NCBI GenBank assembly: GCA_015143295.1
Contig: CM026565.1
Span: 15,808,041 to 15,872,040, forward strand
DNA: 64,000 bases
Source: Tetracentron sinense
Taxonomy: Eukaryota > Streptophyta > Magnoliopsida > Trochodendrales > Trochodendraceae
Direction of reading: 5' to 3'
A program made the translations under genes and the position numbers. The notes beneath the pieces were generated by a model. The model was not told where the DNA came from and did not search any database. It saw only the letters and a list, made by a program, of their open reading frames with translations. Positions 22,148 to 35,507 of the stretch are shown here, piece after piece. Position 1 is the stretch's first letter; each line of letters starts with the position of its first letter.

Positions 22148-23382
22148 ATGAGACGCAATACCCAGGGTCACGGGTACAACACGAGGGGTAATGGAGGTGA
22201 TGCTCAATCGGGTGATGATCAACCCGACTTTGCCCAAGCATTCGCATCCATAGCCGAGACTTTGGCTATGTTGGCGGCAAGGCAACCGGCCACTCCGCCT
22301 AATGCGGCACTTATACCGGCTCCTCCTAACCGAGCCCAAGCCGGGATAGAAGCTTTTCGGAGGATGAGGCCTCCAACTTTTTGTGGAAGCATTGATCCAC
22401 TTGTCGCTGAGGGTTGGATTCGGCAACTCGAGAAGATATTCTCGGTATTGGCACCTACGGAAGTGGAAAGGGTCACTTGGGCCGCCTTTATGCTTGAAGG
22501 CGAGGCCGACCATTGGTGGAAATCCGCACTTCGGACCCGAGAGTTGACCCGGCAAGGTCAAGATTGGACTTGGGAGGAATTCTTGGAAGCTTTCAACAAG
22601 AAATACTTTCCGGTCGGAATGAGAGAGAAGATGGAAGTGAAATTTATTACCTTGGAGCAAGGTAATATGTCCGTAGCGGCTTATGAAGCCAAATTTTCAG
22701 AGCTATCTCGATTTGCTCCACACATGATAGCTACCGAGGTTATGAAGGCCCGAAAATTCGAGAGGGGGTTGAAGGCCTACCTCAAGGATCGTGTCTCAAT
22801 GTTCCGACATGAGACATATTCAGAAGTTGTGGACAAAGCATTGTTGGCCGAGTCGAATTCCGAAGAGTTCTTTAAGAGAAGAGGAATGGAGAAAGGACAG
22901 TCAAGTAGTTCAGGAGAAAAGAGCAAGGACTAGCTTGTATCAGTCTGCAGAGCCGGCTCAGTCACAGAGGATATATTCGGCACCACAGGCCCCTCGCTCT
23001 TTTGCTCCACCGACCTTTCGCCCGGCTACCTCATATGCTCCTCGCCCCGCAGTTACTCAAGCTACGGGATATGCTCCTTCCTCCTATTTGCATGATGTCT
23101 GCACTCTTTGTGGAAGGAGGCATCCAACAGGAGAATACCGGAGGGTTTCAGGAAGTTGCTTCCATTGTGGTGACCATGGTCACATGGTTAGAGATTGTCC
23201 CCGACGTCAATTGCCAGCTCAGTCTTCGGGGAGCAGGCCCCCGATTAGGCAGACATCTCAGCCTAGCTCTTCTCAGGCTTCGAGGGCCTCACAGTCTACC
23301 CGGCCTCCTCGCCCAGCCACACAGGGCCGAGTCTTTGCATTATCCGAGAGAGACGCACGTGCATCCGACGATGTCATGCAAG
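22148..23382 (+). pseudogene. Element A gag (frameshifted)
   Basis: Gag packages the element RNA. The frame opens MRRNTQGHGYNTRG at 22148, preferred over the in-frame ATG at 22127 because element B gag starts with the same MRRNT motif. The Retrotrans_gag region contains EGWIRQLEKIF, MLEGEADHWW, EEFLEAFNKKYFP and FITLEQGNMSVAAYEAKFSE. Near 22900-22920 the frame shifts: the first frame stops at 22931-22933, and the +1-offset frame carries on with the proline-rich linker and the CCHC knuckle CFHCGDHGHMVRDC (about 23158-23199). The last codon is split by the intron donor at 23383. Confidence 0.9.
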
Positions 23383-23518
23383 GTACGCAAAAATTCTAGA
23401 GTCTAAGTTGTGTAAAATTTCTATGGTTTATTATGTGATTATTTATACTAAGGGTTATTCTATGTATGATGCTTGTGATTGTTTGAAATCTACTAATAGT
23501 AGTTACTTAATCGCACAG
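23383..23518 (+). other. Putative spliceosomal intron between gag and pol, element A (136 bp)
   Basis: Donor CAAG|GTACGC at 23382/23383 and acceptor TCGCACAG|GC at 23518/23519. A perfect plant/yeast-type branch site TACTAAT lies at 23491-23497, 21-27 bases before the acceptor. Both gag and pol frames have a phase-1 codon at the boundary, so removal joins them in frame. If retained, the gag frame terminates at 23397-23399, five codons into the intron. Element B has the same arrangement. Confidence 0.78.
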
Positions 23519-25601
23519 GCGCTTTATTAGTGAACGAGTGTCTCGCCCGTGTGTTGATCGACACAGGATCCACTCACTCCTTTGTGTCACCTAGTTTCGC
23601 AAAGGGATTTTTGACTGAGTCTACTCCGTTAGAGCGGGAGTTGACCATTGCAACTCCACTCGGCAAGTCAGTTGATACGGACAAGATATTCAGGGATAGT
23701 GTGGTTCAAGTGGGGGAGAATGAACTGTTAGCCGATCTCATCGTCCTAGCTTTTCAAGACTTGGATTTTGATGTCATCTTAGGGATGGATTGGTTGTCAA
23801 ACCATCACGGGAATGTTGTGTATTTTGAAAAGATGGTGAATTTCAAGCCGTAAGGAGTTAAGCCTTTTCATTTCCGAGGATTGAGAGAAAGGGATATTGC
23901 TCGCCTTGCAGCTTTGAGCTTAGCGAACCCCGAAGTACAAAACTCCTCGACTATTCCAGTTGTGAGTGAGTTCTTAGATGTGTTTCCGGAGGAACTTCCA
24001 GGGTTACCTCCGAATCGGGAGATTGAGTTCGCTATAGAGCTTACTCCGGGCACCGCTCCGATTTCAAGAGCCCCATATAGAATGGCCCCGATAGAGCTCG
24101 AAGAATTGAAGAAGCAAATTGAGGAGTTACAACAACTTGGTTTCATCCAACCAAGTGTGTCACCGTGGGGAGCTCCGGTCCTTTTTGTAAAGAAGAAAGA
24201 CGGGTAGATGAGAATGTGTATAGACTACCGTCAGTTGAACAAGGTAACTATCAAGAATCGTTATCCCTTGCCAAGGATCGATGACTTGTTCGACCAACTG
24301 AAGGAAGCGAGATTCTTCTCCAAAATTGATCTTAGATCGGGGTATCATCAATTAAGGATCAAGGCGGAAGATGTTCCGAAGACGGCTTTCAGGACTCGGT
24401 ATGGGCATTACGAGTTCCTTGTCATGCCTTTTGGGCTGACGAATGCACCGGCGGCATTCATGGATTTGATGAACCGGGTGTTCCGATCTTACTTGGATCA
24501 ATGTGTGATTGTATTCATTGATGACATTTTGGTGTATTCCCAGACACGGGAAGATCACGCACGAGACCTCCGCCTTGCTCTGGAGATGTTGAGAGAGCAT
24601 AGGCTATATGCCAAATTGAGTAAGTGCGAGTTCTGGTTAGAGAAGGTCGCATTTCTAGGACACGTGGTGTCGGCCGAGGGCATTTCTGTAGATCCAGCTA
24701 AGGTTGAGGCAGTCATGAGTTGGGAGAGGCCCAAGAGCGTCACGGAGATACGTAGTTTCCTCGGATTGGCAGGCTACTACCGGAGATTTGTGGAGGGATT
24801 CTCCAATTTGGCGGCACCTCTCACCTACTTGAAAAGGAAAAATGCAAAGTTTAGTTGGAGTGACCGATGTGAAGTAAGTTTCCAAGAGTTGAAGAAACGC
24901 CTCACCACAGCCCCTGTCCTTACTGTGCCATCTGGACCTTTTGGGTATGAGGTGTATAGTGATGCCTCACACGTCGGACTCGGGTGTGTCCTAATGCAAC
25001 ACAAGAAAGTTATTGCCTATGCATCAAGGCAGTTGAAAGAGCATGAAAAGAACTACCCCACTCACGACTTGGAGCTTGCGGCGGTCGTGTTTGCTCTCAA
25101 AATTTGGCGACATTATCTGTATGGGGTGGAGTTCTATGTGTACACGGACCACAAGAGCCTCAAGTATCTCTTTTCCCAAAAAGAGCTAAACTTACGACAA
25201 CGGCATTGGATTGAATTCTTAAAGGACTACGAGTGCACTATCCAATATCACCCGGGAAAAGCAAATGTGGTGGCAGACGCTCTGAGTAGGAAACCATCGG
25301 GGTTGTTGGCTCACATGTTGGTGCGGGAATGGAGACTGTTAGACGATTTGGTAAATCTAGACATCAGTGTGAATGATTCTGTCCGCAGTCCGGTTTTGGC
25401 AAATGTTACAGTTCGGCCGTACCTTATAGACTTGATCCAGGAGTATCAAGCCACAGACACTGACTTGTTGGCTTTCCGGGATAAGAAAGTGGCCAAGGGT
25501 AGTACGGACTTCTCTCTCACTAGCCGATGTGCTATTACATTCAAGAGAAGGCTTTGTGTCCCAGCCAATGCAGACCTTCGGAGAGAGATTATGGACGAAC
25601 C
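23519..25601 (+). pseudogene. Element A pol: protease, RT, RNase H (two stops, truncated)
   Basis: Aspartic protease motif [11 protein letters not shown] lies near 23555. RT motifs include [43 protein letters not shown] and [11 protein letters not shown]. RNase H follows with [27 protein letters not shown] and [11 protein letters not shown]. The same frame is broken by TAA at 23851-23853, after the protease, and TAG at 24205-24207, where element B has a serine codon. It ends at GAACC (25597-25601), where the LTR of element B begins; the 8 further codons are LTR sequence. Integrase is missing. Confidence 0.93.
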
Positions 25602-26313
25602 TGTCGCGACCCAAAACCCACCCTAGGAGTTAGAGTGAATCTTGGACGACTTAATCATTACTTACATGACTTGCTTGACGAACCAACCTGCAAAACTCAC
25701 AGAACATATACAATAGAGGATAACAGCGGAAGCATAACTATAAAACACAACGGAAGTCTAACAAACCTCTAAGTATATATACACATGGTCCAAGTTTAAT
25801 ACAAAAGAAAACAAAACAAAGAAAGTGCGGACATGCCCGCCAAAATACATGGATATAATCACTCATGCTCACCCACAGCTAAACCACTTAGAATCTAACA
25901 CCACCTACTGATAACCCTCTATGGGAGGTTCCTCCAAAGGTTCCTCGACGTACTCCTCCTCCACCCAAGGGCTAGGAGCACAGACATCAAATGGAGCAGC
26001 AGCTCCCTCAGAACCTGTCGACATAAGAAGTACGGCTGAGCATGGAATACTCAGCGGGTACTAAATACTAACCAATAGTCATAGTAAAACCATAGTAGTA
26101 TAGGAAGCAGGAAGCATTTCACATATATAAAGCAGGAAACAATTCAAGCATATAAAGCAGGAATAATTCATATCATGACAATAAAGTAAAGGAGTACATA
26201 ATCATGCTTGAATTCATAAAAGCCGATAAAACCCTTGAAAACACCGTGCACTTGACTTGACTTGACTGAAAATACCATTTCCTTGCTTGAAAACTTGTCA
26301 TGTTTGTCTTATC

Positions 26314-26745
26314 TTATCGTATCATGCATGTCATGCCATGTCTTGTCATGCTTGCTTGAAAAAGTAAACTACTTGTGAGGGAAGGGAGACCCTTCTTCCT
26401 AGAATGCTTATGCTTGTCATGCCATGTCTTGTCATGCTTGCTTGGAAAAGTAAACTACTTGTGAGGGAAGGGAGACCCTTCTTCCTAGAATGCTTATGCT
26501 TGTCATGCCATGTCTTGTCATGCTTGCTTGGAAAAGTAAACTACTTGTGAGGGAAGGGAGACCCTTCTTCCTAGAATGCTTATGCTTGTCATGCCATGTC
26601 ATGTCATGCTTGCTTGGAAAAGTAAACTACTTGTGAGGGAAGGGAGACCCTGCTTCCTAGAATGCTCATGCTTGTCCTTCCACTTGTGAGATTTACTTGT
26701 GAGATGTCCTTGTGAGATGCACTTGCGAGGGAAGGGAGACCCTTC
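26314..26745 (-). repeat. 87-bp minisatellite in the 3' LTR of B, four full copies
   Basis: Unit contains CTTGTGAGGGAAGGGAGACC, CTTCCTAGAATGCTTATGC and TTGTCATGCCATGTC. Full copies have ACTACTTGTGAGGG at about 26368, 26455, 26542 and 26629, followed by a partial copy near 26720. The 5' LTR has three copies. Confidence 0.9.
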
Positions 26746-27674
26746 TTATGAAAATGTATGATTGTCTTATCCTTGCCAAAAGCGAGGTAAAACATATCGT
26801 AGGATATGCCCCACCTCTAAATCTCATTCTTGAAAGCCTTGGTAAATCATGTCATGCATGCGTGCTTGTGGAAGCGTGTACATACTTGCATTTAAATTTA
26901 AATGTGACATTTGGAGAGTTAACAATACATAACAATCCATAGACATCAATCAATTGAGCAATTCAATATTTGTGTAATTTAGGGAAAACAAGAAGGCACA
27001 CCATCATAACCCTAGCAAATTTCCATAAACCTTAAACATGAATTTTCTTAATTTCTTATTCATTTCATTCATCTTGGCATTTCATCAAACATGGTGTGTT
27101 CATTATTTGTTAACCCTACAACATGCTTTTCTAGGTGGGTTATACTCACATCACACTTGTATGTTTATTATTAGTACAATGCCCTTCCCCATTCATTCAT
27201 TTCATCATTCACACGGCATCCATTCGCCAACATCCATCTCCATTTACCATACATACCACCCATCTCATAATATATATATATATATATGAAGGAATACAAG
27301 AAGAAATAAGGAAAGGAGAGGCTATAACTAGGAGGGTAGTAAAAAGCACCGACCTTGATCAAGTGAGGAAGAAATCCCCCTTTTCAAAACGACCGTGAGT
27401 TGCTGCCCTAGCTTGAGGAGAGTGCCCCACACGAGCTTGAGCCGAGATCTTGAAGGAAAACGTGCTTGAGGATGGTCTAGGGTCTCAAACCCCTTAGATT
27501 TCTCTTCAAAATGGAAACCCTAGGTTTAGGAACCCTTTCTCCTCTCTTCTAATCTCCCAATTCTTCTAAGTGTTTAGAATGAGCCCTAAAGGCTCGGGCA
27601 ATCCTATATAAGAAAAGGTATAACACCCTTATTCCGAAAATGCCCCCCCCTAGTGAAAATTCTGCAAAAACGCG

Positions 27675-27864
27675 AGTACCGAGCGATCGGTGTTAATGAC
27701 CGATCGATCGGTTGCCTACCGATCGATCGGTTTCATAACCGAGCGATCGGTTAAAATTTCACTCTCTGGAAAATTTCTCCATACAAAAATCTTGACCAGT
27801 CGATAGCCTCCGAGCGATCGGTTTTGGACCGATCGATCGCTCCATGGACCGAGCGATCGGTGGT
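27675..27864 (-). repeat. ACCGATCGATCGGT palindrome array in the 3' LTR of B
   Basis: Seven copies of a 14-bp palindrome lie at about 27678, 27699, 27718, 27738, 27808, 27828 and 27848. Some are perfect (ACCGATCGATCGGT); others have one changed base pair (ACCGAGCGATCGGT). The flanks GACCTGCAG and GTTTTTGCAGAA (minus-strand sense) are shared with element A. Confidence 0.92.
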
Positions 27865-28071
27865 CTGCAGGTCCAAACTGTTTTGGCCATAACTTTTGAC
27901 TCGTTCGTCCGATTTTGACGATTCAACTTGCGTTGGGTTTGTACTTCGAAAACGAACATTTCTGACATTTCGGAATTTCCAATTTCTTCCTCATTTATTA
28001 ATTGCATTACTTTAAAGGAAAAATGGCTACGAAGGGTCATGCATAAATGTGAAAAGGTCCGGGGCTCTACA

Positions 28072-28085
28072 TCCATCCCCCCTTA
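28072..28085 (-). other. Polypurine tract of element B
   Basis: On the minus strand the bases before the 3' LTR read AAGGGGGGATGGA. They are preceded by TTTCGAGGACGAAATTT, a phrase often found just upstream of the polypurine tract in plant chromoviruses. Confidence 0.82.
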
Positions 28086-28173: not shown

Positions 28174-31100
28174 TCATTCAAACAATTCCGGGTACTTCGC
28201 TTTGACTTCGGCTTCACGCTCCCATGTAGCTTCTTCCCGAGCATGGTGTTGCCATTGCACAAGAACCAAAGGGATTGTCTTGTTGCGAAGTACTTGATCT
28301 CTCCGATCCAATATGTGAATCGGCTTCTCAACCAACGTGAGATCTTCTCGAATTTCCAACGGTTCCAATTCTAGTATATGCGAAGGGTCCGCAATGTACT
28401 TCCGAAGCATAGACACGTGGAAAACGTTGTGAACCGCGGCCATGTAAGGTGGAAGAGCTACTCGATAAGCAACTTCACCAACCCGCGTGATAATCTCGAA
28501 CGGTCCAACATAGCGAGGACTAAGCTTGCCTCTTTTGCCGAATCTCATAATCCCTTTGCCAGGAGATACTTTCACAAAGACTCGATCCCCTACTTGAAAT
28601 TCCAAGTCCTTGCGGCGCGTGTCTGCATAGCTCTTTTGGCGATCTTGAGCGGCTTTCAACCGATCCCGGATGATCTTGACTATACTAGCAGTTTGCTCAA
28701 TCAACTCCGGACCAAGTACTTTTCTTTCTCCTACCTCATCCCAGTAGAGAGGAGACCTGCAGCTTCGCCCATACAAAGCCTCGAACGGAGCCATTTGGAT
28801 ACTCGCCTGATAGCTATTGTTGTAGGCGAACTCCACCAAAGGCAAGTGCTCTTCCCAACTGCCTTTGAAATCCAGCATACAAGCCCGAAGCATATCTTCT
28901 ATTACTTGGTTCACCCTCTCGGTTTGTCCATCCGTTTGTGGATGAAAAGCAGTGCTGAAATCAAGTCGGGAACCCATAGCTTCCTGAAAGCTTTTCCAGA
29001 ATCGTGATGTGAATCTTGGATCCCGATCCGACACAATACTGACAGGCACTCCGTGCAACCTCACCACTTCCTTGATGTACAAAGTAGCTAACTGACTAGA
29101 GTTGAAAGTAGTTCGGTAAGGCAAGAAGTGAGCGGACTTCGTCAAACGATCCACTACTACCCATATCGCATCTGAACCCCTTGCCGTCTTTGGCAAGCCA
29201 ACTATGAAATCCATGGATAAGTTCTCCCATTTCCACTCGGGAATCGGAAGGGACTGTAATAGACCTGCGGGCCGCATGTGTTCTGCTTTCACCTGTTGGC
29301 ACACCAAGCACCGTGCTACATATTCCGCAACCTCCCTCTTCATATTCCGCCACCAAAAGTGACTCTTGAGGTTCCGGTACATCTTCGTACCCCCTGGATG
29401 CACAGTGTACTTTGCCCGGTGGGCTTCATCCATAATCTCCCTCCGAAGATTTGCATTGGCTGGAACACACAGCCTTCCCTTGAATGTGATAGCACCTCGG
29501 CTAGTGAGAGAGAAGTCCTCACTACCCTTAGCAACTTCCTTGTTCCGATAAGCCAACAATTCAGCATCCGTGGCTTGGTATTCTTGGATCAAATCTATAA
29601 TGTATGGCCGAACCGTGACATTTGCCAAGATAGGACTACGGACAGAGTCATTCACACTAATGTCCAGATTTGCCAAGTCTTCAAGTAGCTTCCATTCCTG
29701 CACTAACATGCATGCTAACAACCCCGGAGTTCTTCTGCTCAAAGCATCAGCCACTACATTTGCTTTACCCGGGTGGTATTGAATGGTACAATCATAGTCC
29801 TTCAGAAATTCCATCCAACGCCTTTGCCTTAGATTCAGCTCCTTTTGGGAAAAGAGATACTTGAGACTCTTGTGATCAGTGAACACATAGAACTCCACCC
29901 CATAAAGGTAATGACGCCAAATCTTAAGTGCAAACACGACCGCCGCAAGCTCCAAGTCGTGCGTAGGATAGTTCTTCTCATGCTCCTTCAACTGCCTTGA
30001 TGCATAGGCAATGACTTTCTTGTGCTGCATGAGTACACACCCAAGTCCAACGTGTGAGGCATCACTATACACCTCATACCCATAAGGTCCGGATGGCACC
30101 GCAAGGACAGGAGCTGTGGTAAGCCTCTTCTTCAGTTCCGTGAAACTGATCTCACACTTGTCGCTCCATACAAACTTAGCGTTCTTCCTTGTCAGGTAAG
30201 TGAGCGGTGCTGCAAGGCTGGAGAAACCCTCTACGAATCTTCTGTAGTAGCCTGCCAACCCAAGAAAACTGCGTATCTCCGTGACACTCTTGGGCCTCGC
30301 CCAATTCATGACTGCCTCTATCTTCTTTGGATCCACCGAAATGCCTTCCGCCGATACAACGTGGCCTAGGAATGCCACCTCTTCCAACCAAAACTCACAC
30401 TTGCTAAGTTTGGCGTATAGCTTGTGCTCTCTTAGCATTTCCAAAGCAAGGCGCAGGTCGCGTGTGTGATCTTCCCGTGTCTGGGAATAAACCAAAATGT
30501 CATCAACAAATACAATCACGCACCTATCAAGATATGGCCGGAACACCCGGTTCATCAAATCCATAAAGGCTGCCGGCGCGTTCGTGAGTCCAAAAGGCAT
30601 CACCAAGAACTCGTAATGTCCATATCGAGTCCTGAAAGCAGTTTTGGGAACATCTTCCGCCTTAATCTTCAACTGGTGATAACCCGATCGAAGATCTATC
30701 TTTGAGAAAAATCTCGCTCCCTTCAACTGATCGAACAAGTCATCAATCCTAGGCAAGGGATACCTATTCTTTATAGTGACTTTGTTCAATTGCCTGTAAT
30801 CGACACACATCCGCATCGAGCCATCTTTCTTCTTAACAAACAACACCGGGGCACCCCATGGTGAGACACTTGGTCGAATGAAGCCAAGGCCTTGCAATTC
30901 CTCCAACTGAGTCTTCAACTCCTTGAGTTCAATAGGGGCCATTCTATATGGAGCTCTGAATACCGGAGCTGTGCCTGGTGCAAGCTCGATCATAAACTCA
31001 ATCTCCCTGTCTGGAGGCAATCCTGGCAGCTCCTCTGGAAATACATCCAGGAACTCACTCACAACCGGAATAGTCGATGAGTCCTTTGCCTCGGGGTTAG

Positions 31101-31499
31101 CTAAGCTCAACGCCGCAAAACGGGCAATGTCTCTACATTTTAACCCCCGAAAGTGAAATGGTTTTCCTTTTACCGGCTTGAAGAGTACCATCTTCTCAAA
31201 GCAAGCTACATGCCCATGATGTGCTGCTAACCAATCCATTCCCAATATAATATCAAAGTCTTGGAATCCAAGGACGATGAGGTCAACCGCCAACTCGTGG
31301 CTTCCAACTTGGACCGCACTATTTCTATACACTTTATCTGCCAATACTGTTTTGCCGAGCGGAGTCGAAATGGCTAACTCCGGTTTTAGCTGACTAGGCT
31401 CCACAGAAAAGCCTTCTGAAAAACTCGGCGAGACAAACGAATGAGTAGACCCGGTATCAATCAATACTCGAGCCAAATACTCATTGACTAGTAGGGTTC
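28174..31499 (-). CDS. Element B pol: protease, RT, RNase H, integrase, chromodomain
   Basis: An uninterrupted frame of about 1,107 codons downstream of the intron. Domains in order: aspartic protease ([11 protein letters not shown]); RT with [31 protein letters not shown] and the catalytic [10 protein letters not shown]; RNase H with [11 protein letters not shown] and [11 protein letters not shown]; integrase with its zinc motif ending [11 protein letters not shown] and core residues in [20 protein letters not shown] and [14 protein letters not shown]. The C-terminal 60 residues ([31 protein letters not shown]) are a chromodomain-like module. In related chromoviruses this module is thought to direct integration to modified chromatin. 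The apparent first Met at 31539 lies in the intron; translation most likely begins with gag on the spliced mRNA. Confidence 0.95.
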
Positions 31500-31644
31500 C
31501 TGAAATTTTAACTAGCGGAGTTAATCCATGCATCAACAACGTATACGTGTAGGTTTATATACATATAGAACATGCCGAGTACGTACACAAAAATATAGCA
31601 TAACATAACAATCATGAATAAAGAAAATAACTCCAAACGCGTAC
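31500..31644 (-). other. Putative spliceosomal intron between gag and pol, element B (145 bp)
   Basis: On the minus strand the donor is CAAG|GTACGCG at 31645/31644 and the acceptor AAATTTCAG|GAACCC at 31500/31499. The interior is T-rich and a branch-site-like GGATTAACT lies near 31520. Codons are interrupted after their first base on both sides, so splicing fuses a 416-codon gag to the 1,107-codon pol without a frame change (about 1,524 residues). Unspliced RNA gives gag plus a hydrophobic tail ending at the stop 31508-31510. Element A keeps an intron of the same phase at the same place. Confidence 0.82.
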
Positions 31645-32893
31645 CTTGCACCACATCATCAGATGCAAGTGCATCACCCTCTGTCAAAGCAAATACACGC
31701 CCCTGGTTCGCCTGGCGAGACTGAGGTGTAGACCGGGTAGTCTGAGATGACGCCTGGTATGATCCTGCTGGGCGTGTCGGGGGCCTACTATCCTGAGACT
31801 GGCCTGGTAAATGCCGGCTAGGGCAATCCCTGATCATGTGGCCCTGGCGACCGCAATGATAACATCCACCAGATGCTCTTCGGCAATCTCCTGCCGGATG
31901 CCTTTTGCCGCATGAAGTGCAGACCTCATATGTGTAGGCTGGAGGGACCGGAGGTGGTGTATACCTCGCTGCCTGAGGGGTAACTGGCCGTGGGGCCGGA
32001 AGAGCCTGAGGTCGAGGTGCCTGTGGCACGTACTGCCGGGGTGCTGGAGGAGCATAAGTCGGCCTCATCTGTGGTGCTGGCCATGTATACTGATAAGGAC
32101 CAGTCCGGGCCCGCCTCTCTGGAGGTGCTGAACTATTGGCTTGGCCTCTCGCCAATTCTCTCTTCTTAGACACCGCTTCGGAATTGGCCTCGACCAATAA
32201 GGCCTTGTCTACCACTTCAGGGTAGGTGGCATGCCTGAAAACGGAAACCTTCTCCATAATAACATCCTTGAGCCCTTGCTCAAATCTTCTCGCCTTCATT
32301 GCCTCAGTAGCAACCATATGAGGCGCGAATCTCGACAATTCTGAGAACTTGGCCTCATAAGCGGCCACAGACATCGAACCTTGCTCAAGGTTGATGAATT
32401 CTCTCTCTTTCTTTTCCCGTGCACCGATCGGAAAATACTTCTTGTAAAAAGTATCTTTGAACTCCTCCCAAGTCCACGGTTGACCTTGCATGGTCAAGTC
32501 CCGTGTCCTCAATGCGGACAACCACCAATGGTGGGCTTCGCCCTCTAGCATAAAAACTGCCCATGCCACTTTCTCTTCCTCTGTAGGAGAGAGCACCGCA
32601 ATTATCTTCTCAACCTGGAGGATCCAAGCCTCCGCAGTAAGAGGGTCCACACTCCCGTGGAAGGATGGAGGCCTCAATCTCCTGAATGCCTCAACTCCAG
32701 CTGTACGATGTACTGGAGCTGCGGGCGGTGGAGTAGGTGCCGCCGACGATGGTATAGCTTGCCGAGCCGCCAGTATGGCGAGTGTCTCAGCAATAGAGCC
32801 TAAGACCTGGGAGAGGTCAGGCTGCTCATCCTCACCCCGTGAAGAAGAGGAAGCTCTGGTATGTGGCCCACGACCCCGTGTGTTCCGTCTCAT
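31645..32893 (-). CDS. Element B gag
   Basis: The structural protein that packages element RNA. The start is placed at 32893 (MRRNTRGRG), shared with element A; the frame is open 39 codons further upstream, but that part is leader. After a low-complexity N-terminus comes the Retrotrans_gag region (AEAWILQVEKII, MLEGEAHHWW, EEFKDTFYKKYFP, FINLEQGSMSVAAYEAKFSE). Then come a long proline-rich linker and one CCHC knuckle, CYHCGRQGHMIRDC. Without splicing the protein would gain about 45 residues encoded by the intron, largely hydrophobic (LFMIVMLCYIFVYVLGMFYM). Confidence 0.93.
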
Positions 32894-33237: not shown

Positions 33238-33249
33238 GCTCTGATACCA
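33238..33249 (-). other. Primer-binding site of element B
   Basis: Minus strand TGGTATCAGAGC, an exact initiator tRNA-Met complement, four bases from the 5' LTR. Confidence 0.92.
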
Positions 33250-33253
33250 CTTC

Positions 33254-35407
33254 TGTCGCGACCCAAAACCCACCCTAGGAGTTAGAGTGAATCTTGGACG
33301 ACTTAATCATTACTTACATGACTTGCTTGACGAACCAACCTGCAAAACTCACAGAACATATACAATAGAGGATAACAGCGGAAGCATAACTATAAAACAC
33401 AACGGAAGTCTAACAAACCTCTAAGTATATATACACATGGTCCAAGTTTAATACAAAAGAAAACAAAACAAAGAAAGTGCGGACATGCCCGCCAAAATAC
33501 ATGGATATAATCACTCATGCTCACCCACAGCTAAACCACTTAGAATCTAACACCACCTACTGATAACCCTCTACAGGAGGTTCCTCCAAAGGTTCCTCGA
33601 CGTACTCCTCCTCCACCCAAGGGCTAGGAGCACAGACATCAAATGGAGCAGCAGCTCCCTCAGAACCTGTCGACATAAGAAGTACGGCTGAGCATGGAAT
33701 ACTCAGCGGGTACTAAATACTAACCAATAGTCATAGTAAAACCATAGTAGTATAGGAAGCAGGAAGCATTTCACATATATAAAGCAGGAAACAATTCAAG
33801 CATATAAAGCAGGAATAATTCATATCATGACAATAAAGTAAAGGAGTACATAATCATGCTTGAATTCATAAAAGCCGATAAAACCCTTGAAAACACCGTG
33901 CACTTGACTTGACTTGACTGAAAATACCATTTCCTTGCTTGAAAACTTGTCATGTTTGTCTTATCTTATCGTATCATGCATGTCATGCCATGTCTTGTCA
34001 TGCTTGCTTGAAAAAGTAAACTACTTGTGAGGGAAGGGAGACCCTTCTTCCTAGAATGCTTATGCTTGTCATGCCATGTCTTGTCATGCTTGCTTGGAAA
34101 AGTAAACTACTTGTGAGGGAAGGGAGACCCTTCTTCCTAGAATGCTTATGCTTGTCATGCCATGTCATGTCATGCTTGCTTGGAAAAGTAAACTACTTGT
34201 GAGGGAAGGGAGACCCTTCTTCCTAGAATGCTCATGCTTGTCCTTCCACTTGTGAGATTTACTTGTGAGATGTCCTTGTGAGATGCACTTGCGAGGGAAG
34301 GGAGACCCTTCTTATGAAAATGTATGATTGTCTTATCCTTGCCAAAAGCGAGGTAAAACATATCGTAGGATATGCCCCACCTCTAAATCTCATTCTTGAA
34401 AGCCTTGGTAAATCATGTCATGCATGTGTGCTTGTGGAAGCGTGTACATACTTGCATTTAAATTTAAATGTGACATTTGGAGAGTTAACAATACATAACA
34501 ATCCATAGACATCAATCAATTGAGCAATTCAATATTTGTGTAATTTAGGGAAAACAAGAAGGCACACCATCATAACCCTAGCAAATTTCCATAAACCTTA
34601 AACATGAATTTTCTTAATTTCTTATTCATTTCATTCATCTTGGCATTTCATCAAACATGGTGTGTTCATTATTTGTTAACCCTACAACATGCTTTTCTAG
34701 GTGGGTTATACTCACATCACACTTGTATGTTTATTATTAGTACAATGCCCTTCCCCATTCATTCATTTCATCATTCACACGGCATCCATTCGCCAACATC
34801 CATCTCCATTTACCATACATACCACCCATCTCATAATATATATATATATATGAAGGAATACAAGAAGAAATAAGGAAAGGAGAGGCTATAACTAGGAGGG
34901 TAGTAAAAAGCACCGACCTTGATCAAGTGAGGAAGAAATCCCCCTTTTCAAAACGACCGTGAGTTGCTGCCCTAGCTTGAGGAGAGTGCCCCACACGAGC
35001 TTGAGCCGAGATCTTGAAGGAAAACGTGCTTGAGGATGGTCTAGGGTCTCAAACCCCTTAGATTTCTCTTCAAAATGGAAACCCTAGGTTTAGGAACCCT
35101 TTCTCCTCTCTTCTAATCTCCCAATTCTTCTAAGTGTTTAGAATGAGCCCTAAAGGCTCGGGGCAATCCTATATAAGAAAGGTATAACACCCTTATTCCG
35201 AAAATGCCCCCCCTAGTGAAAATTCTGCAAAAACGCGAGTACCGATCGATCGGTGGTAATGACCGATCGATCGGTTGCCTACCGTCGATCGGTTTCATAA
35301 CCGAGCGATCGGTTAAAATTTCACTCTCTGGAAAATTTCTCCATACAAAAATCTTGACCAGTCGATAGCCTCCGAGCGATCGGTTTTGGACCGATCGATC
35401 GCTCCAT
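33254..35407 (-). repeat. 5' LTR of element B, cut by the assembly gap
   Basis: Follows 25602 onward almost base for base. The minisatellite has three units instead of four (ACTACTTGTGAGGG near 34022, 34109 and 34196), and the palindrome array begins near 35240. Sequence stops at GATCGCTCCAT inside the array, where the N-run starts. About 230 bp of the LTR are missing. Confidence 0.93.
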
Positions 35408-35507
35408 NNNNNNNNNNNNNNNNNNNNNNNNNNNNNNNNNNNNNNNNNNNNNNNNNNNNNNNNNNNNNNNNNNNNNNNNNNNNNNNNNNNNNNNNNNNNN
35501 NNNNNNN
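35408..35507. other. Assembly gap (100 N)
   Basis: Exactly 100 N, the usual placeholder for a gap of unknown size. Missing content must include the outer end of the 5' LTR of B and should include the rest of element A (integrase and 3' LTR), since Athila-like sequence follows directly. The 76-77 codon ORFs over the N-run are meaningless. Confidence 0.95.

Follow-up and report, generated by a model that had tools for sequence, protein, structure and literature searches.

The closest described systems are found in several lineages of plant long terminal repeat (LTR) retrotransposons. In Ogre (Ty3/gypsy, Tat lineage), an intron lies between the open reading frames (ORFs) and is spliced from a subset of the transcripts in pea and Medicago (PMC6317226). 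According to the same source, a single ORF is the rule in most groups, whereas the ORFs of Bianca and Ogre lie 172 and 274 bp apart on average (PMC6317226). In the Ty1/copia elements BARE1 and EVADE, the production of Gag versus Gag-Pol is controlled by a short intron located close to where gag meets protease (PMC3735527, PMC12786077). In CRR, a chromovirus of the CRM clade in rice, transcripts are spliced and the reverse transcriptase (RT) is said to be spliced out (PMC3735527). Bongo, a Tekay/Del element of Beta vulgaris, has undeleted LTRs of 2.56-3.0 kb, 5-bp target site duplications (TSDs) and a chromodomain upstream of the polypurine tract (PPT); it is described with a gag-pol ORF, and the source has a single mention of an intron, concerning a host-gene insertion, and none of splicing (PMC3605345). 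Here, we have explored a 64,000-nt stretch of Tetracentron sinense DNA (the window), in which the gag and pol of a chromovirus, element B, are separated by a segment of 145 bp. We consider it very probable that this segment is a spliceosomal intron within the protease of a Tekay-like chromovirus; its predicted removal from a part of the transcripts would leave Gag-Pol to be made from the spliced RNA, and Gag alone from the unspliced RNA.

All coordinates are positions in the window on its forward strand, and element B lies on the minus strand (Table 1). From the ATG at 32893, its gag frame is free of stops over 416 codons and one further base, down to 31645, and its pol frame extends uninterrupted from 31497 to a stop codon whose last base is 28174. 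The segment between them (31644-31500) starts with GTACGC and finishes with TTTCAG, and its excision restores a split codon, with G before the segment and GA after it. At 145 bp, its length is not a multiple of three, and an unspliced reading would run 45 codons into the segment before meeting a stop. The original prediction had placed gag and pol in different frames, with a GT-AG segment between them that interrupts the codon after its first base on both sides; its coordinates are confirmed, and so is the single gag-pol frame obtained by excision, while unspliced RNA would be read as gag plus a tail. The segment contains 66.9% A+T and 42.8% T, compared to 43.7% and 54.3% A+T and 21% and 30% T in its 300-nt flanks. 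Restoration of the frame was rejected as sufficient proof of an intron, as 217 of the 868 GT-AG pairs with a spacing of 60-500 nt within a region of 745 nt likewise join the frames without a stop. What lifts the intron reading above chance is the base-exact absence of the segment from sister copies, the agreement in site, phase and six-base donor with a second element of the window (element A), the unbroken protease homology over the join, and the T-richness of the segment. The sister copies of two subfamilies that lack it to the base, and the intron of element A at the same site, give strong support to reading the segment as an intron.

Element A is a diverged relative on the plus strand, with an amino-acid identity to element B of 52-65% in gag, 75% in the protease and 92% in RT. 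The predicted introns of the two elements have the codon, the phase and the donor GTACGC in common, and are hardly alignable outside this shared donor. An allele of the B-type intron, found in L075, is 142 bp long and 82% identical to that of element B. In each genome search the 40 best candidates were scored, so that the counts of intronless and intron-bearing copies are not population frequencies. A 120-base query made of the joined flanks of element B gave 40 scored places, 38 of them matched over positions 1-120 and the other two over 1-119 and 3-120, respectively. All 40 fetched B-type intronless copies have zero bases between the exons, and all 32 fetched B-type intron-bearing copies have a segment of 144-145 bp. 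With the joined flanks of element A, 10 of the 40 scored places were matched across the junction and 30 were split (28 with both halves listed); the A-type intronless copies that were fetched are all exact at the junction (10/10). When the query was flank-intron-flank of element A, the 40 scored matches, at 98-100% identity, all ran through the intron. The donor is kept in 14 of the 15 intron-bearing A copies (14 fetched and the copy in the window), and in L102, of A type, a small ragged deletion has taken the donor and left the remainder of the intron. In-frame coding sequence of the same length in related copies had been named as the observation that would speak against an intron; among the copies fetched, each has either the intron or its exact absence, and none has such a sequence. 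A comparison of intron and exon divergence among B copies was set aside because these copies had been picked by their match to the intron.

The protein encoded around the junction points to the same conclusion. Pfam was run separately on the pieces upstream and downstream of the intron, and on the natural junction of an intronless copy, L014. In the downstream piece of element B, the RVP_2 model is matched from position 25 only (105.1 bits), and over the natural junction of L014 it is matched from position 3 to 134 (132.5 bits). A protein search with the L014 junction stretch was taken to the best 120 of 173 matches, and 140 proteins were then compared by BLASTP. Among the resulting 128 alignments, 120 cross the junction, 110 of them free of gaps over the 25 columns around it; three others begin at the junction and one (P0002) stops there, its tail being unrelated; the other four are located elsewhere. 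These database proteins are predictions and speak for the protein frame, not for the presence of an intron in their DNA. In a scan of genome contigs, three related elements were found in bacterial assemblies; only one of them, the plant-type element L079, extends to the junction, and its DNA runs through the junction point with no intron. In a scan of viral contigs, no relative was confirmed. The usual chromovirus frame is unbroken at the junction, and the segment is thus an addition within the protease domain.

Two of these records deserve a comment. L077 (BMWJ01000031.1) and L079 (NZ_VCHY01000050.1), titled Streptomyces clavifer and Labilibacter sediminis, contain chromovirus parts with 76% identity to the RT of element B, and are probably plant contamination. 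As for P0002, which comes from a source contig of 942 bases, this foreign gag shows 56% identity over the part that matched, and it ends in DDVVQGT followed by a short non-protease tail. Our guess from its sequence is that such an ending is what the same intron, unspliced, would give in another species; a protein search with P0002 returned itself, one distant match and nothing more.

How the intronless copies arose can be approached through L014. Compared to the intron-bearing L002, it is identical at 599 of 600 bases upstream of the junction and at 900 of 900 downstream, with no difference within 60 bases of it. Its LTRs differ by one indel, the 5-bp target duplication GAGGT is found on both sides, and its gag-protease frame is open. 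Most simply, L014 would represent a recent integration of reverse-transcribed spliced RNA. In the mechanism that we propose, the spliced RNA would retain both ends and the primer binding site, and could be packaged, reverse transcribed and integrated to give intronless copies, while template switching between spliced and unspliced RNA would produce mosaic ones. Four intronless copies (L019, L021; L024, L025) look mosaic: to one side of the junction, but not to the other, they cluster with copies that have the intron. An acceptor-like TTCTCAG stands immediately upstream of the gag ATG in both elements of the window, at about 32902 (-) and 22140 (+). The leader, from the LTR match to gag, is of similar length in L014 (362 bp) and in the L002 element (360 bp), and no leader intron has therefore been lost together with the gag/pol intron.

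Several points weigh against this account and are best considered together. Splicing itself is inferred from the sequence, and the queries made of joined flanks are biased towards exact junctions. In addition, L014 could stem from a short conversion by an intronless donor: the nearest variants common to most intronless copies, at -44 (35/40) and -53 (34/40), are not in L014, but L013, L015, L016 and L017 are likewise without them. The intronless copies might also have been formed with no splicing at all, by DNA deletion from what would then be an ordinary insertion. A short repeat, AG|G, is present at both ends of the segment in A and in B, and a deletion mediated by it could be exact. We regard this as very improbable, given that all 50 intronless copies read are exact (with the above bias of the queries), that the A and B segments have the same limits despite their scarce alignability, that the composition of the segment is intron-like, and that the sole ragged deletion seen (L102) has removed the donor and left the rest. 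The history of gains and losses was examined in trees of 100 rows, 49 of them with the intron, built on 350 bases downstream and 350 bases upstream of the junction. The minimum numbers of state changes are 9 (downstream) and 5 (upstream); given the shortness of these stretches, the choice of rows by their rank in the searches and the likelihood of recombination, the number of losses can be taken as a rough guide only. A tree in which all rows with the intron form a single clade is rejected by the approximately unbiased (AU) test (p 4e-38 and 5e-6), and the intron trait is thus mixed across subfamilies, which speaks for the proposed account. One clade of the A-type intron rows (p 0.216, 0.224) and one clade of the B-type intron rows (AU p 0.375, 0.189) are not rejected. 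A further point of the opposing kind is that the B intron rows are nested in a wider intronless set, which would fit a separate gain in B as well. Under two independent gains at the same site in an intronless lineage, most of the intronless B copies would be ancestral and not losses. This possibility draws on the nesting just described, on the poor alignment of the A and B introns beyond the shared donor, and on L079 and the Pfam model, in which the frame is unbroken in other elements. Nevertheless, we find it unlikely, because A and B share codon, phase and six-base donor, and because it would still need losses for L014 and for the A copies L080, L081 and L085, which group with intron-bearing rows. 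Our preferred reading is one old gain, with the intron already in place in the ancestor that A and B shared, followed by repeated losses.

The role of the intron is a separate matter. Its retention or removal would be a plausible and simple means of making more Gag than Pol. The original prediction had also drawn attention to a hydrophobic tail on the unspliced Gag; of 34 copies, 31 would have a retained tail of 45 aa, whereas its length is 29 and 10 aa, respectively, in two B copies, 5 aa for element A and about 10 aa in the L075 allele. On this variation in length, the tail was rejected as a conserved feature, which counts against a role in the ratio. L014, a young copy that has no intron and whose gag-protease frame is open, also cuts against an essential role; mobility thus does not strictly depend on the intron, perhaps because Gag can act in trans. 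It is therefore quite possible, if somewhat short of an even chance in our estimate, that the intron is spliced near-constitutively and is a tolerated passenger with no role in the Gag:Gag-Pol ratio, the unspliced RNA mattering as genome only. Besides the unconserved tail and the intronless copies with open frames, it fits this possibility that a single ORF suffices for most plant groups (PMC6317226). Against it, the intron persists in two diverged subfamilies although each passage through spliced RNA would delete it; its persistence points to a preference for unspliced RNA or to a benefit from the intron. In addition, partial splicing is reported for Ogre (PMC6317226). Returning to the intron as a Gag/Gag-Pol switch, we give an even chance to the broader proposal that, in this chromovirus lineage, a protease-splitting intron acts as such a switch and is repeatedly shed via spliced RNA into single-ORF copies, so that both strategies would coexist, recombine and compete in one family and one genome.

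Table 1. Location of the features of elements B and A in the window.
Feature	Position	Strand	Remark
Element B exon 1: gag (capsid, zinc knuckle) and first protease-domain residues	31645..32893	-	
Element B predicted intron, 145 bp, GTACGC...TTTCAG, phase 1	31500..31644	-	exactly absent from sister copies
Element B exon 2: remaining protease, RT, RNase H, integrase, chromodomain, stop	28174..31499	-	
Element B protease domain (RVP_2), split by the intron	31168..31708	-	limits estimated from the profile match
Element B chromodomain	28180..28314	-	Pfam Chromo 23.5 bits, E 5.3e-5, slightly below the curated 25.1-bit cut-off
Element B primer binding site TGGTATCAGAGC	33238..33249	-	
Element B PPT, adjoining the 3' LTR	28072..28082	-	
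Element B 3' LTR, 2470 bp	25602..28071	-	outer limit by analogy with L014
Element B 5' LTR, cut by assembly gap	33254..35407	-	
Element A gag, frame broken	22148..23382	+	
Element A predicted intron, 136 bp, GTACGC...CGCACAG	23383..23518	+	same codon and phase as in B
Element A protease to start of integrase	23519..25601	+	ends at the element B 3' LTR

Regarding its classification, element B has the domain order of a chromovirus, gag-protease (PR)-RT-RNase H (RH)-integrase (INT), as found by Pfam on pieces searched separately, and its integrase is followed by a chromodomain, as in chromoviruses, with a score just under the curated cut-off. A long LTR (2470 bp) and a chromodomain upstream of the PPT are present in B, and a 5-bp TSD in L014, as expected for Tekay/Del. 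The primer binding site is presumably of the tRNA-Met type. The proposed Tekay/Del placement agrees with LTR length, chromodomain position and primer binding site, and is a placement by features; LTR length, chromodomain position and TSD, compared with those given in PMC3605345, set the element apart from CRM and Reina better than from Galadriel. The LTRs of element B are 99.72% identical over 2154 compared columns, with 92 gap columns besides, and contain 86-bp tandem units (26238-26795 and 33890-34361) whose number is unequal between the two. A run of 100 N at 35408-35507 interrupts the 5' LTR; it looks like a scaffold join, since the sequence directly past it is neither LTR nor the remainder of element A. 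As the 5' LTR enters this gap, the description of element B as uninterrupted is only partly checkable. Elsewhere in the genome, some copies lie about 7.5 kb apart (C22:4002423/4009909, C13:33889043/33896526, C2:55843974/55851450), and in L075 (1-7901) one LTR is common to two internal regions, as after unequal recombination between elements.

Elements that replicate through RNA would be expected to lose an intron fast; here, the intron has been kept in two diverged subfamilies beside visible exact losses, and one genome therefore has matched intron-bearing and intronless elements. Comparing the two forms makes the Gag-over-Pol excess in plant Ty3/gypsy elements directly testable. In the literature searched (titles and abstract openings, with few subscription papers, hence weak evidence), no chromovirus with a gag/protease intron was found. 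CRR is alike in being a chromovirus with spliced transcripts and differs in that its splicing is not at the gag/protease junction. The likeness to Bongo lies in the 2.47-kb LTR of element B, its chromodomain upstream of the PPT, and the 5-bp TSD of L014. With BARE1 and EVADE the logic is reversed, as their unspliced RNA encodes Gag-Pol and their spliced RNA Gag only. The element resembles Ogre in having an intron between the gag and pol parts whose removal fuses the frames, and the two would work alike if splicing here is partial. However, Ogre belongs to another lineage, and its intron is positioned after the protease, between PROT and RT, whereas the introns of elements B and A, of 136-145 bp, are in a chromovirus and split the protease domain. 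While gag/pol introns were already known from Ogre, what is new is a Tekay-like chromovirus with a probable intron in its protease, together with its natural intronless counterparts.
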